A DNA stretch of 33,117 nucleotides from a virus. Both the position numbers and the translations under genes were made by a program. Position 1 is the first letter of the stretch. Every line of letters begins with the position of its first letter. Under the pieces are notes generated by a model. It made no database searches. It was not told the DNA's origin and saw only the letters and a program-made list of their open reading frames with translations. The stretch lies in the IMG/VR virus record IMGVR_UViG_3300022746_000042, positions 1-33,117 of that record, one strand, 5' to 3'. This document shows, piece by piece, positions 7,355 to 14,271 of the stretch.

Positions 7355-7837
7355 TCAGATTGAAATGGCGAAGAAGCTTTGTCGGAATGGTAGCCACACG
7401 CTGGCGAATTGCGCAATGTTGTCTTTTGTCAATTGCAAACTGTTGCCGTTTGAAAAGTAAAAATTCGTCGGTGCAAATTTGTCACCTTGAAATTGGGATG
7501 CGATCAACACCGCCGTGACGCCATTTTGATCATCACGCGTGGCGCTACACATGACGCCATTGAAGTCAACGCCAACCACTTTGGGGTTGGCGGCGCTAGT
7601 GTCCACCCACTCGGGCAAATCAGGCTTGGTGGTCTTTGAAAAATCTCGCAGTTTGAAGCCGAATCGCTCAATTGTGGACGTGTCGGTCAGGACTTCCCAG
7701 CTTTTGAGTTCGTCGTTTTTGTGTAAGCTGTAAATGGTTCCGCCCAGCATTGCCATAAAGGCCGCATGCTCGGGTGTGTCGACAATCGCGTTAAGGTCTT
7801 CGCGGCTGTTGATGATCGTGTTAGAAAGTGAGCCCAT
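7355..7837 (-). CDS. DUF4376-like protein downstream of the reverse transcriptase
   Basis: This 160-residue protein starts at ATG 7837 with a GGATGG-type ribosome site. The start lies inside the last codons of the reverse transcriptase gene (17-base overlap), so the two are coupled. The N-terminal half (A-A-F-M-A-M-L-G-G, then D-T-S-T-I-E-R-F-G-F) is unassigned. The C-terminal half (D-F-N-G-V-M-C-S-A-T-R-D-D-Q, then L-Q-L-T-K-D-N-I-A-Q-F-A) follows the DUF4376 pattern seen at the ends of phage tail-fibre and fibre-assembly proteins. A fibre-associated or chaperone role for the diversified fibre is plausible. It is not an Avd homologue. A longer frame to 7909 exists but would overlap the reverse transcriptase further without a ribosome site. 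Confidence 0.5.
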   Translation of the reverse strand: MGSLSNTIINSREDLNAIVDTPEHAAFMAMLGGTIYSLHKNDELKSWEVLTDTSTIERFGFKLRDFSKTTKPDLPEWVDTSAANPKVVGVDFNGVMCSATRDDQNGVTAVLIASQFQGDKFAPTNFYFSNGNSLQLTKDNIAQFASVWLPFRQSFFAISI

Positions 7838-8804
7838 ATCTGTTTTCCATCCATTTGAAAAGGTTGTTCGTATCCGCCCATTTTGCATGACCTTGCCATG
7901 ATGCTGCAAACTTGGCCAGGGTGTCCATGTCGTTATGTTTGATGCAGTGCGCGACTTTGCGTTTTGCCCGTGTGACCGAATCTTTGCGCAACAATTTGTG
8001 CGTCGGCCAAATGCGATAGCCTAGAAAGTTGACGCCTTGCGAAATTGGCGAGACTTGCCATTTGCTGATGTTCAGCTTCAATTTGTCCATTGAAAAGTCA
8101 TTGATTCGCAAAAATGAATCCATCAACTGATCTTTGTCATGACCGAGAATAACAATATCATCCATGTAACGGGCCCATTGCCGATGCTTCAAATCAAAAT
8201 GAATAAAGCGATCAATGCCGTTGCCGTACACATTCGCAAACAATTGACTTGTTAGGCTACCGATTGGGATTCCACGGCCTTCAAGCGGGATTATTTCGCG
8301 CAATAGGCCTAGCGTCTTTTCACAATCAATCTTTCTGTCAATCATTGCATGCAACACGCCATGATCAATGTTTGGGAAAAACTTTGAATAGTCGGTTTTT
8401 AGAAAGTGCGTGGCTTTCATCGACCGCATTGTTGCTTGCAAATATTCAACCCCTTTGTGCGTGCCTTTACCCACACGGCAAGCGAAGGTGTTGGGCATTA
8501 AGGTGCGTTCAAATATGGGGGCGACCACATTGCATAGCGCATGTTGAACCAAACGATCTTTGAAGTCCAATGCCGATATGAGGCGCGGTTTGGGTTCATA
8601 GACCGTGAATTGTCGGTAGTCGCCAATTTTGTATGTGCCGTCGCGCAATTCTTCTTGAACGCGCAACAAATTGACTTCTGAAAATTCTTTGAATTCGAGA
8701 TAACCGAATGTCAACTTTTTACCTTTGGCAGTCTTTTCATACGCCAATCTCAAATTGTCAATGTCGGTTATTTTTTCAATTAAATGTCGATACTTCTTTA
8801 CCAT
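7821..8804 (-). CDS. DGR reverse transcriptase
   Basis: This 327-residue protein is a reverse transcriptase of the diversity-generating retroelement clade. Motif A carries D138 in K-T-D-Y-S-K-F-F-P-N-I. Motif 4 is R-G-I-P-I-G182-S-L-T-S-Q187, the G-x-x-x-S-Q form characteristic of DGR enzymes rather than the Q-G-x-x-x-S-P of group II introns and retroviruses. The active site is Y213-M-D-D216. There is no maturase or endonuclease domain, and the length matches known DGR enzymes. It would copy TR RNA into adenine-mutated cDNA with the Avd protein. ATG 8804 is chosen. The frame stays open upstream through the spacer and TR, but those bases act as RNA template and lack RT motifs. Confidence 0.95.
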   Translation of the reverse strand: MVKKYRHLIEKITDIDNLRLAYEKTAKGKKLTFGYLEFKEFSEVNLLRVQEELRDGTYKIGDYRQFTVYEPKPRLISALDFKDRLVQHALCNVVAPIFERTLMPNTFACRVGKGTHKGVEYLQATMRSMKATHFLKTDYSKFFPNIDHGVLHAMIDRKIDCEKTLGLLREIIPLEGRGIPIGSLTSQLFANVYGNGIDRFIHFDLKHRQWARYMDDIVILGHDKDQLMDSFLRINDFSMDKLKLNISKWQVSPISQGVNFLGYRIWPTHKLLRKDSVTRAKRKVAHCIKHNDMDTLAKFAASWQGHAKWADTNNLFKWMENRYGLTF

Positions 8805-8954
8805 AAAAAAGTCGGCTCCGCCTTTGGATTTCCTACTAAGCGTTATGCCGAACCCCTGCGTGTATTCCCCGAAGGGGGACAAACCCGGCTGATTACACTT
8901 TATTTGGTCTGCCCGCCAAGCCGTGGCGTTGACGGAGCGATGAAGTAATGTCGC
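8805..8954 (-). ncRNA. DGR template-RNA spacer between TR and reverse transcriptase
   Basis: About 150 bases separate the 3' end of TR from the RT start codon and hold no gene. In Bordetella phage BPP-1 the corresponding stretch of about 140 nt is part of the structured DGR RNA needed for priming. Here I see small hairpin candidates on the minus strand: CGCCA/TGGCG (8914-8928) and a CCCC-TTC-GGGG hairpin (about 8867-8877). Extent and function are inferred from position. Confidence 0.6.
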
Positions 8955-9069
8955 CACAGGCAAAGCGCGACCCGATGTTATTGTTCGAGTTCGACGCGGC
9001 GTTATTCCAATTAGAGTACCGAGAACCGGAGTTCGAACCGTTGTTCCAGTTACCCCCAAGGAGAACCGC
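8955..9069 (-). other. DGR template repeat (TR)
   Basis: This 115-bp segment aligns without gaps to 9491-9605 at 99 of 115 positions. Read on the minus strand in the fibre frame it is rich in AAC/AAT codons (W-N-N-G-S, N-W-N-N-A, S-N-S-N-N-N-I). In such codons, mutation of adenines gives wide amino acid choice without stop codons. It holds 24 minus-strand adenines, of which 12 differ in VR. It lies between avd and the RT, as in BPP-1. The last 20 bases (8955-8974) are identical in VR. Confidence 0.95.
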
Positions 9070-9073
9070 CTAT

Positions 9074-9448
9074 TTACCCAGGTTGCCCCGGCTTTTGTCT
9101 CCCTTTCACCCATGCGCCTACCATGGCCCCAACGTCCGCCAACAGTATTTGTGCTGTCAGTTGTTGATGGGGTGTAAGTACATGGATGGAAAGGAGAAAT
9201 CGCATCCAGAAACGTAGCTGCGCAAGTCCTGCGTCCGCTACGTAAATTTTTGAAATTTGGTTTGATTTCCCCGCTTGAAAAAATAAATCCGGCATCCCGA
9301 GAAGACATTTCAAGAACATTTCTCGGGCGACCCCATGTTTGCGTGGCATCGACTGTGCAATCGGATACAAATAGGCGATCACCCGTTCGTATTTCTCCAC
9401 GATTGCCATTTGGTCGTAGCATTTGCCAAGTTCCTTAACTGGTTCCAT
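9074..9448 (-). CDS. avd: Avd, DGR accessory variability determinant
   Basis: This 124-residue, all-helical, basic protein has the signature of Avd: V-E-K-Y-E-R-V-I-A-Y-L-Y-P-I-A-Q-S-M-P-R-K-H-G near the start, then F-L-K-C-L-L-G-M, a central helix (A-G-L-A-Q-L-R-F-W-M-R-F-L), and a last helix (L-L-A-D-V-G-A-M-V-G-A-W). Avd forms a pentameric four-helix-bundle barrel that binds the DGR RNA and reverse transcriptase and is needed for cDNA synthesis. It follows the target gene and its hairpin. It ends 4 bases before TR, the same order as in phage BPP-1. ATG 9448 is used. An alternative ATG at 9409 (M-A-I-V-E-K-Y) would remove 13 residues. Neither has a strong ribosome site. Confidence 0.9.
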   Translation of the reverse strand: MEPVKELGKCYDQMAIVEKYERVIAYLYPIAQSMPRKHGVAREMFLKCLLGMPDLFFQAGKSNQISKIYVADAGLAQLRFWMRFLLSIHVLTPHQQLTAQILLADVGAMVGAWVKGRQKPGQPG

Positions 9449-9454
9449 TTAGAC

Positions 9455-9470
9455 GGGCGCTTTCGCGCCC
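9455..9470 (-). promoter_or_regulatory. DGR target-recognition hairpin with GAAA loop
   Basis: On the minus strand GGGCGC-GAAA-GCGCCC forms a perfect 6-bp stem with a GAAA tetraloop. It abuts the fibre stop codon and lies 20 bases downstream of VR. In BPP-1-type DGRs a DNA hairpin or cruciform with a GRNA loop in this position is needed for retrohoming. No T-tract follows, so a terminator is less likely. Confidence 0.75.
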
Positions 9471-11135
9471 TCAATCAAGTTGCAAGTGGTCACAGGCAAA
9501 GCGCGACCCGCCGGTACTGCCCGAGGCCGACGTGGCGCTAATCCAATTAGAGGACCGAGAACCGGCGTTCGAACCGTCGCTCCAGTTACCCCCAAGGACA
9601 ACCGCATTGGGCGCGTTGTACTCTGAACCACGACTTGCTGTTGTGCCTGTTGCTGGATTCCAGCCACCCGTGTTATATGCACCGCCACGTTCACGGCCCC
9701 ATTGATTCAAAACGCCCGTGACTTGAATCACACCCCATTTGGACGTGTAAGCCGCATTCAAGATGGTATTGTTCTGATCAGTACCGACCGATGACGCTTC
9801 GGTGGTGCCATAAGCGGCGGACATAAATTCTTGTTGCGTTGGGCAACGCTTACCGAAGCTGGTCGCCAACTCCATTGCTTGCCACCAGTTGTATGACCCA
9901 TAAGTGGTCGTTCCGTTGCCACCAAACATCGTTGGCACTTTGGGTGGGCTAGAACCGTCAGCCATCAAAACGTTGTATTTGCTTGAACCGTTGGTGATGG
10001 CATCCACACCGGTTAAGTAAATATCCATCCAAAAACCACCGGCAACAAGCGTCATACCACGCGGGTCACTGGCAACAGGTCGAAACTTCAAATCCCACAG
10101 GGAATAGGCATTGATTGCCGGTGTCGTGTCACCACCAGATTGCGCGGCCGCATTGCCGCCTGGGGCGTAATGAAAGCCGCCGATTTTGCGTGAATTGGCG
10201 GTCGTGTAGCCCGACGGTGCGCTAAAGCTTGAATCAGCACGGCAAGTGCCATCAGTACACGCGTAAATGGCATAATCCGTGCCTGCTGTGAGCGTCGGCA
10301 TGGTGATGTTGGTATCTGTCGCAAAGGTCTGCAAAAGGCCAGCAACGGCCACAATCGTGCCCGCTTTGATGGTGGCAGTACCCGCGCCCGTTTTCGTGAA
10401 AACTGGGGTCGTGCTGTCAACCTTGTAAAAAGCGCCAGCGTTCGTCAAATTGGAAACGGCGGCAGCCAAATAAATGTTGGTGCCATCGCCCACAATGGTT
10501 TGCGTCAATGTGACCATCACGCCGGTACCGGCGGCAGTCTTACACGTCACGGTATAACCGCCGGTCGTGCTGTTGATGACAATCCAATCTTTCGCGATAT
10601 TCGGGAAAATCAAATTCAAATTGGCCGTCAGCGCACCAGTGATGATGATGATTGGTTTGCCATATTGCAACGCCGTGAGCGTCACGTTAGCGTTGGTCAT
10701 CGTGACGGCTGTCGCGCCGCTTGAGAAATCGGGCACCCAGCCAGCGGCCACAGCGCCAGCACCTTCAGGGTCCGTGACGTTGTTGTCGGTGGTATTGAAC
10801 CAATAACCCAAACCGTCCGAGCGCATGACGCGGGCACCTTTAGGGTAGCCGCCCACATTGGTGTCATTGGCGAATGCGGAATCATAGGGATAACCCCCGC
10901 CAGCATTGGCCCATCGAATCACCGCCGACATTTCATAAAGAATGCCGTTCATGTCCAAGCCTGATGGTGGTGTACCACCGGCGGCCAAAGGCGTGCGAGT
11001 TAATGGGGGGAAACCGTCAGTCAGTGAAGCGGCACCATTTGTAATGCCGATTTGTGATGCTGTGGGGATTGTGTTTTTAGCGCCAGCGTTGGCGAAAGGC
11101 AAAACTAGTTTTGCTGGGGCGTTAGTTGACTGCAT
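9471..11135 (-). CDS. Tail fibre / receptor-binding protein, DGR target with variable C-type-lectin tip
   Basis: This 554-residue protein is the DGR target. Residues about 1-115 look like a phage tail-fibre attachment domain (L-V-L-P-F-A-N-A-G-A-K-N-T-I-P, N-G-I-L-Y-E-M-S-A-V-I-R-W). The middle is Thr/Ala/Gly-rich beta structure. From about residue 355 comes a formylglycine-generating/C-type lectin fold, including A-T-S-F-G-K-R-C-P-T-Q-Q-E-F and G-V-L-N-Q-W-G-R-E. The end holds G-G-N-W, S-R-S-S-N-W and F-A-C-D-H-L-Q-L, hallmarks of DGR variable proteins. VR covers residues about 511-548. It presumably binds the host receptor. The ATG at 11135 is preferred over a start 36 codons upstream because AAGGTG precedes it and the overlap with the DUF2612 gene is then only 14 bases. 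Confidence 0.92.
   Translation of the reverse strand: MQSTNAPAKLVLPFANAGAKNTIPTASQIGITNGAASLTDGFPPLTRTPLAAGGTPPSGLDMNGILYEMSAVIRWANAGGGYPYDSAFANDTNVGGYPKGARVMRSDGLGYWFNTTDNNVTDPEGAGAVAAGWVPDFSSGATAVTMTNANVTLTALQYGKPIIIITGALTANLNLIFPNIAKDWIVINSTTGGYTVTCKTAAGTGVMVTLTQTIVGDGTNIYLAAAVSNLTNAGAFYKVDSTTPVFTKTGAGTATIKAGTIVAVAGLLQTFATDTNITMPTLTAGTDYAIYACTDGTCRADSSFSAPSGYTTANSRKIGGFHYAPGGNAAAQSGGDTTPAINAYSLWDLKFRPVASDPRGMTLVAGGFWMDIYLTGVDAITNGSSKYNVLMADGSSPPKVPTMFGGNGTTTYGSYNWWQAMELATSFGKRCPTQQEFMSAAYGTTEASSVGTDQNNTILNAAYTSKWGVIQVTGVLNQWGRERGGAYNTGGWNPATGTTASRGSEYNAPNAVVLGGNWSDGSNAGSRSSNWISATSASGSTGGSRFACDHLQLD
9491..9605 (-). other. DGR variable repeat (VR)
   Basis: This 115-bp copy of TR lies at the 3' end of the fibre gene. 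Sixteen positions differ from TR, and 12 of these correspond to TR adenines. Ten residues are changed through adenines: two N to S/D, Y to S, two N to I/S, N to A, three N to G/S/T, and I to G. Structural residues G-G-N-W and S-N-W are kept. The other four differences are T-to-G (two), G-to-A and C-to-G on the coding strand. Confidence 0.95.
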
Positions 11136-13561: not shown

Positions 13562-14271
13562 ACGGGTGTTCCAGTTTGTCCGCCGCCCGGTGTAACGCCA
13601 CCATGCTTGTGCGTGTGGACGCTAGTGCCATTGGCCATCACATCGCCGGTTACATTCATGGCCCCATTCACGGTGAAAGTGGGCGTGGTGAGCGTGACAG
13701 ACGTCGTGCCATTGATTTCAATTGTGCCCCCATTCAATTGAATGTCGGGGGCTTCCAAAATCACGGCGGTTGGCGAATGAATCTTAATGCCGGTCGTTCC
13801 AAATTGCACGTATTGTGTGGGGGCCGCGTTAAGTGCCCCGCCCAAATACATACCATCCGAAAAACTGTATTGGCGAAGGCTTCCGGGATTACCCTGCGCC
13901 TTTGTGGTCTTAATTTTGGAAATGTCGCGCGACGCAAAAACGGCCACACCAATGTCGCCAGCTTGGGGGTCAATGATGATGCCGTTGGTGCCGCCTTGCA
14001 TCCGCAAATAAGGCACATTGTAGATGGTGACATGGGGCGTCGGATTACCCTGACCGTCCAATTGATTGACCATGGGCGTAATATCAACAAATCCCACGGG
14101 CGACACTCCGCCAACGTTGGTGCAAGCTTCAATGCGCACCAACGTTGCCGTTTGCATTTTGGCAAGCGCCTGATTCACCATGAATGCGATGTTGTTGAAG
14201 TCACCCCAGGTGCTTTGCGGCTTCAGTTGGCCGCTAGGGATGCCGTCACTGTCTTGCGATGGCGAGGCCAT
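13558..14271 (-). CDS. Gp138/gpV-like tail spike (membrane-piercing) protein
   Basis: This 237-residue protein has an N-terminal OB-like domain (A-T-L-V-R-I-E-A-C, D-I-T-P-M-V-N-Q-L-D, P-H-V-T-I-Y-N-V-P-Y-L-R, P-Q-A-G-D-I-G-V-A-V-F-A-S-R-D). A beta-helical stem follows (I-Q-L-N-G-G-T-I-E-I-N-G), and the C-terminal apex H-T-H-K-H-G-G can bind a metal ion as in Gp138 and gpV spikes. It would form the trimeric needle at the tail tip that pierces the outer membrane. ATG 14271 is preceded by GGGGGAA at good spacing. Longer frames to 14325 start at TTG. It overlaps the hub gene by 26 bases. Confidence 0.82.
   Translation of the reverse strand: MASPSQDSDGIPSGQLKPQSTWGDFNNIAFMVNQALAKMQTATLVRIEACTNVGGVSPVGFVDITPMVNQLDGQGNPTPHVTIYNVPYLRMQGGTNGIIIDPQAGDIGVAVFASRDISKIKTTKAQGNPGSLRQYSFSDGMYLGGALNAAPTQYVQFGTTGIKIHSPTAVILEAPDIQLNGGTIEINGTTSVTLTTPTFTVNGAMNVTGDVMANGTSVHTHKHGGVTPGGGQTGTPV

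Follow-up and report, generated by a model that had tools for sequence, protein, structure and literature searches.

The window spans an entire IMG/VR virus record (33,117 bases), in which no end repeats were found, and carries a complete diversity-generating retroelement (DGR) at 7821–11135 on the minus strand, made up of a target gene with VR, a GAAA hairpin, avd, TR, a spacer RNA and a reverse transcriptase (RT) gene (Table 1). The initial annotation had named these parts and placed them on one strand, and its coordinates were right to the base. Pfam and PHROGs assign RT, bAvd and Mtd domain 2 in the window. The RT has both the YxDD and the GxxxSQ motifs of the DGR kind, and avd is placed between target and TR, as in BPP-1-type DGRs. 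At the protein level, the RT is 63.5% identical to BPP-1 Brt and aligns with the RT subunit in the structure of the RT–Avd complex, 8ub7 (E = 1e-143), and the avd product matches Pfam bAvd (E = 1e-26) and PDB 4dwl, Bbp7 (E = 3e-54). Order and strand are the same as in the BPP-1 cassette (mtd-avd-TR-brt), and by blastn about 61% of the window cassette aligns with BPP-1, BMP-1 and BIP-1 at about 65% DNA identity.

Table 1. Parts of the DGR cassette in the window
Feature	Position	Strand	Remarks
DGR target, chimeric tail fibre	9471..11135	-	554 aa from ATG
VR	9491..9605	-	diversified target codons 517-542
IMH-like 3' end of VR, TGACCAC.TG...CTTGA up to stop	9471..9492	-	read from sequence
Hairpin, 6-bp stem + GAAA loop	9455..9470	-	read from sequence
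avd, 124 aa	9074..9448	-	Pfam bAvd; PDB 4dwl Bbp7
TR	8955..9069	-	115 nt
Spacer RNA, TR-RT, 150 nt, conserved with BPP-1	8805..8954	-	holds inferred priming motif
Inferred priming motif, AATCAGCC in window	8887..8894	-	GGTCAGC in 53/56 loci; read from sequence
DGR RT, 327 aa, YMDD + GSLTSQ	7821..8804	-	Pfam, PHROGs

Two open frames were noted around the RT gene. An ORF of 160 aa at 7355–7837 (minus strand) overlaps the RT end, and its product has no match in Pfam or PHROG profiles. The RT reading frame itself is open over 7821–9422 (minus strand), extending through TR for some 210 codons before the RT start; the same is seen in the relatives L003–L007 and in BPP-1, and is absent in most relatives. 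Since most relatives close the frame at once, we rejected the long ORF reaching to 9422 as a product of chance.

TR and VR align over 115 nt and are 86% identical. Substitutions from TR to VR affect 12 of 24 adenine sites and 4 of 91 non-adenine sites (Fisher p = 5e-7), and when the TR/VR pairs of 54 relatives are pooled, 748/1353 adenines are changed versus 62/4736 other bases. The four non-adenine mismatches in the window, on which the initial annotation was silent, exceed the family mean of about 1%. Near-identical TRs, sought by exact DNA pattern in viral_contigs, were not found.

We then considered the elements that flank these repeats. The IMH motif TGACCAC is invariant in 13/13 aligned loci, BPP-1 included, and a hairpin, GGGCGC-GAAA-GCGCCC, follows directly after the target stop. 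A GRNA hairpin of such length appeared in 1 of 5000 shuffles of the 75-nt stretch, and the stem pairs covary across 18 loci with the GRNA loop kept. In the BPP-1 hairpin it is the structure of the stem, not its sequence, that counts (PMC3240598); the 6-bp stem seen here is shorter than the 7–10 bp of that study, yet it is common to close relatives. The fold of the spacer RNA is supported by covariation, and cDNA is primed by an adenine inside the spacer (PMC12875486). The window shares with BPP-1 its IMH, its type of hairpin and, apart from the motif taken up below, its spacer RNA.

A separate observation concerns base complementarity between spacer and target. In nearly all Mtd-type loci, as judged from the spacers and VR ends of L003–L019, L021 and L035, the spacer motif GTGGTCA and the VR IMH motif TGACCAC are exact reverse complements, and the TR version of the motif differs. 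A search for pairing between spacer and VR end gave matches of chance-level length at each locus; in distant DGRs, in which the complementary motif was not seen, it gave nothing consistent.

The initial annotation had predicted that variation in VR would fall at TR adenines while TR stays constant, and comparison among relatives gave this result. The TRs of L017 and L018 are identical, as are the 1679 nt from avd to RT, and all 15 differences between their VRs are at TR adenines. The same holds for 16/16 VR differences between L013 and L015 and for 19/22 between L009 and L010, two further pairs with identical TRs. In L005, all seven ambiguous VR bases (N) are at TR adenines (P = 1.6e-5). L005 has another small group of ambiguous bases at 14125–14154, approximately 3 kb after RT and outside any TR/VR repeat. 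Contig ends also cluster near VR in several relatives; we do not use this as evidence, since the TR/VR repeat alone could produce the clustering.

The window itself was compared with its sister phage, L003. At the four informative non-adenine sites (positions 5, 17, 32 and 86), the window VR agrees with its own TR in every case. VR thus tracks its own TR where it differs from L003, and we infer that it was rewritten after the lineages split. By this sequence comparison, the window DGR has evidently worked since its split from L003. Against the same sister, dN/dS of RT is 0.045; for avd, dN is 0.010 and dS 0.380. These values indicate strong purifying selection on both genes. That TR and VR could be an ordinary diverged duplication, with the RT unrelated to the repeats, might be suggested by their closeness, as a tandem duplication could give. 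This explanation is refuted, to a degree that leaves it a negligible probability, by the adenine bias, by TR-identical loci whose VRs differ at TR adenines, by the tracking of VR with its own TR, and by the conservation of IMH, hairpin and spacer.

The target itself has two parts of different affinity. Residues 1 to about 225 resemble the tail fibres of Bcep1, BcepNY3, Bcep781, Xanthomonas phages and Pseudomonas phage Amjad_SA (41–52%), and residues from about 236 to 554 correspond to Mtd domain 2 and the C-type-lectin head, with VR at the 3′ end of the gene, in the part bearing that head. The match to Mtd runs from target residue 213 on (E = 7e-106), the C-terminus is 56% identical to Mtd, and the mtd_2nd profile is matched with E = 3e-30. 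An AF2 model of residues 237–554 (pLDDT 93.6) superimposes on the Mtd crystals (1yu4) with a TM score of 0.96 and an rmsd of 1.3 Å; only this C-terminal model was used, the full-length model being poor (pLDDT 51). The N-terminal β-prism of BPP-1 Mtd is absent, as the match starts at Mtd residue 34 and the N-terminus is a fibre domain, so what the target holds is an Mtd module in a chimera and not a full Mtd. In BPP-1, Mtd stands alone as a protein of 381 aa with an N-terminal β-prism; in the window, the head is fused to a fibre part of about 225 aa of the kind found on Naesvirus-like contractile tails. The fibre–Mtd junction is repeated in L003, L049 and L101. An engineered T7 gp17–Mtd chimeric fibre (LR745708) is built in the same manner, from a fibre N-terminus and Mtd; that chimera was made in the laboratory, whereas the fusion in the window is natural.

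TR puts adenines in 13 target codons (517, 519, 520, 523, 528, 530, 532, 533, 537 and 539–542), from which about 1.4e14 proteins are possible and a stop codon can never arise. These codons align with Mtd 344, 346, 347, 350, 355, 357, 359, 360, 364 and 366–369, and all except 528 and 540, that is 11/13, are also adenine-bearing codons in the BPP-1 TR.

The genes near the target encode a sheath (phrog_205), Baseplate_J, gpV apex, hub and tape measure, and with such neighbours we assign the phage a contractile tail; the initial annotation, which had called the target a contractile-tail fibre, is borne out by the sheath, Baseplate_J, gpV apex and hub. The sheath is nearest to that of Amjad_SA (about 50% identical) and is detected by phrog_205 and not by Pfam Phage_sheath_1. 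Neither sheath nor Baseplate_J was detected in BPP-1, whereas the window has both. The RT tree groups the window with L003 in a single clade (support 100/99), placed among relatives in which neither sheath nor Baseplate_J was detected. Since phrog_205 misses the known sheath of VHML, a missing match elsewhere says little about tail type. Neither the window fragment nor L003 yielded an integrase. As in the window, the Naesviruses Bcep1 and Bcep781 and phage Amjad_SA have the order baseplate J, structural protein, fibre, holin. In Bcep1, the baseplate wedge, structural protein and fibre genes are followed by a small gene and the holin with the cassette absent; the layout of Amjad_SA is similar, and beside the fibre of these Naesviruses and Amjad_SA a DGR is neither annotated nor given space. 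Their fibres match the window target in its N-terminal part only, and the cassette fills what in the Bcep1 and Amjad_SA layouts would be the 3′ half of the fibre and the space before the holin.

DGRs on contractile phages are already known, from VHML and from small myoviruses (PMC10743442). Vibrio phage VHML resembles the window in carrying a DGR with its target in the tail region, but that target is annotated as a SUMF1-type protein and the VHML RT is far more distant from the window RT. The small myoviruses FP_Lagaffe, nd4 and nd12 (PMC10743442, PMC11792537) are likewise contractile with the DGR target in the tail region, and Mtd-like targets on such phages are on record in the same two reports; the Lagaffe targets resemble Mtd, while the Lagaffe RT is just 34% identical to that of the window.

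Homology also supports the initial annotation in seeing here a BPP-1-type DGR directed at a tail-fibre tip. A role of the target in particle adhesion, or another function distinct from receptor binding, might be entertained. We regard it as very unlikely, as the target occupies the position of the fibre gene in the baseplate operon and bears the head of Mtd, the receptor-binding protein of BPP-1.

The spacer motif sets the window apart from its relatives. Of the 56 loci with a mapped RT start, 53 have GGTCAGC where cDNA priming is inferred to take place; AATCAGCC stands there in the window alone, and two distant loci have no match. We take the priming adenine (A56 of BPP-1) to lie in GGTCAGCC of the spacer. 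The change is from GG, as in the BPP-1 motif, to AA before TCAGCC, beside this adenine, and the rest of the spacer is conserved. It breaks pairs 77–94 and 78–93, which the other 16 aligned loci keep, and the isolated core helix folds with −2.9 kcal/mol in the window versus −10.7 in L003. The DGR is complete, as initially annotated; its unusual spacer motif went unmentioned there. Because AATCAGCC replaces the conserved GGTCAGC, the present activity of the window DGR is doubtful; the AA change beside the priming site may have reduced it, and AATCAGCC might also be an assembly error. The variant at the priming site seems to be new.

A rival interpretation is that the cassette was recently inactivated, with the GG to AA change stopping or slowing cDNA priming and VR frozen while all else is intact. 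This has some plausibility, although we are inclined to doubt it. The variant is confined to one of 56 loci, it removes two otherwise conserved pairs, and VR carries four non-adenine mismatches that repeated homing would erase. On the other hand, purifying selection acts strongly on RT and avd, although a recent loss would escape this measure, and two of the mismatches are at sites where T to G occurs in relatives having intact spacers.

The latter sites belong to a wider pattern. In 93 distinct TR/VR pairs, 72 of 7424 non-adenine sites are changed, 33 of them from T to G. A hotspot lies towards the 5′ end of VR, where a single column has 14 changes, 13 of which are T to G (corrected p = 3e-12; 13 in 75 pairs). 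The columns AAC[T]CC and ACA[T]CGG have five and three changes, respectively, all T to G; the window carries both, and neither is significant alone. The T to G observations come from the window VR (9511–9599) and from L009, L013, L015, L039, L045, L052, L057, L115 and L136. Residues 513, 524 and 542 might be under selection for Arg/Gly, Ala and Gly, which could account for these changes; a bias of the RT could do so too. In Mtd-type DGRs, non-adenine changes that are mostly T to G and have one strong hotspot seem to be new. That the RT of these DGRs has a second, site-limited T to G activity besides adenine mutagenesis is, in our estimate, a long shot.

Relatives of the Mtd module are encoded by 78 viral contigs and 75 bacterial-genome loci, many of the latter distant. 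Where the module accompanies one of the closest RTs, the stretch N-terminal to it measures anywhere between about 60 aa, in BPP-1, and about 860 aa, in L005. The phages concerned differ in their tails: the loci of L016, L017 and L019 adjoin a J-type central fibre and are siphovirus-like, that of L021 adjoins an internal virion protein and is podovirus-like, and the contractile layout of the window is common to L003, L049 and L101, with more distant baseplate-gene homologues in L057. The description of the window as having a podovirus-type DGR order is imprecise, since the order target-avd-TR-RT is also found in siphovirus-like and contractile phages; the stronger statement that holds is that homology with BPP-1 extends over the entire cassette, including the Mtd head. 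Mtd-like targets with adenine-biased TR/VR pairs were also observed in Lachnospiraceae, Treponema and Halanaerobium genomes (L140–L185), with RTs about 33–41% identical. The fusion of C-lectin heads with varied N-termini is a general proposal already made (PMC8144416), and both the DGR class and the modular idea are known.

With its anatomy, homology, adenine bias, VR rewriting after the sister split and chimeric target all read from sequence, we are highly confident that the cassette is a BPP-1-type DGR that rewrites the fibre head of a Naesvirus-like contractile phage and has been functional since that split. By homology to BPP-1, the RT–Avd complex would copy TR RNA with errors at adenines, cDNA would be primed from the spacer adenine, and the cDNA would replace VR beside IMH and the hairpin. 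As many as 13 codons for the receptor-binding head would be rewritten in this way, by a cassette that in this lineage, together with its Mtd head, is seated on the fibre of such a phage. By analogy with BPP-1, the window phage may switch hosts. One receptor-binding mutator module is borne by phages with different tails, and Bcep1, cassette-free and with the same gene order, is available for comparison. Two features of the window are testable, the natural variation of its spacer at the inferred site of priming and the recurring T to G change; should the latter be introduced by the RT, as opposed to being favoured by selection on the protein, it would be an unrecorded second activity.
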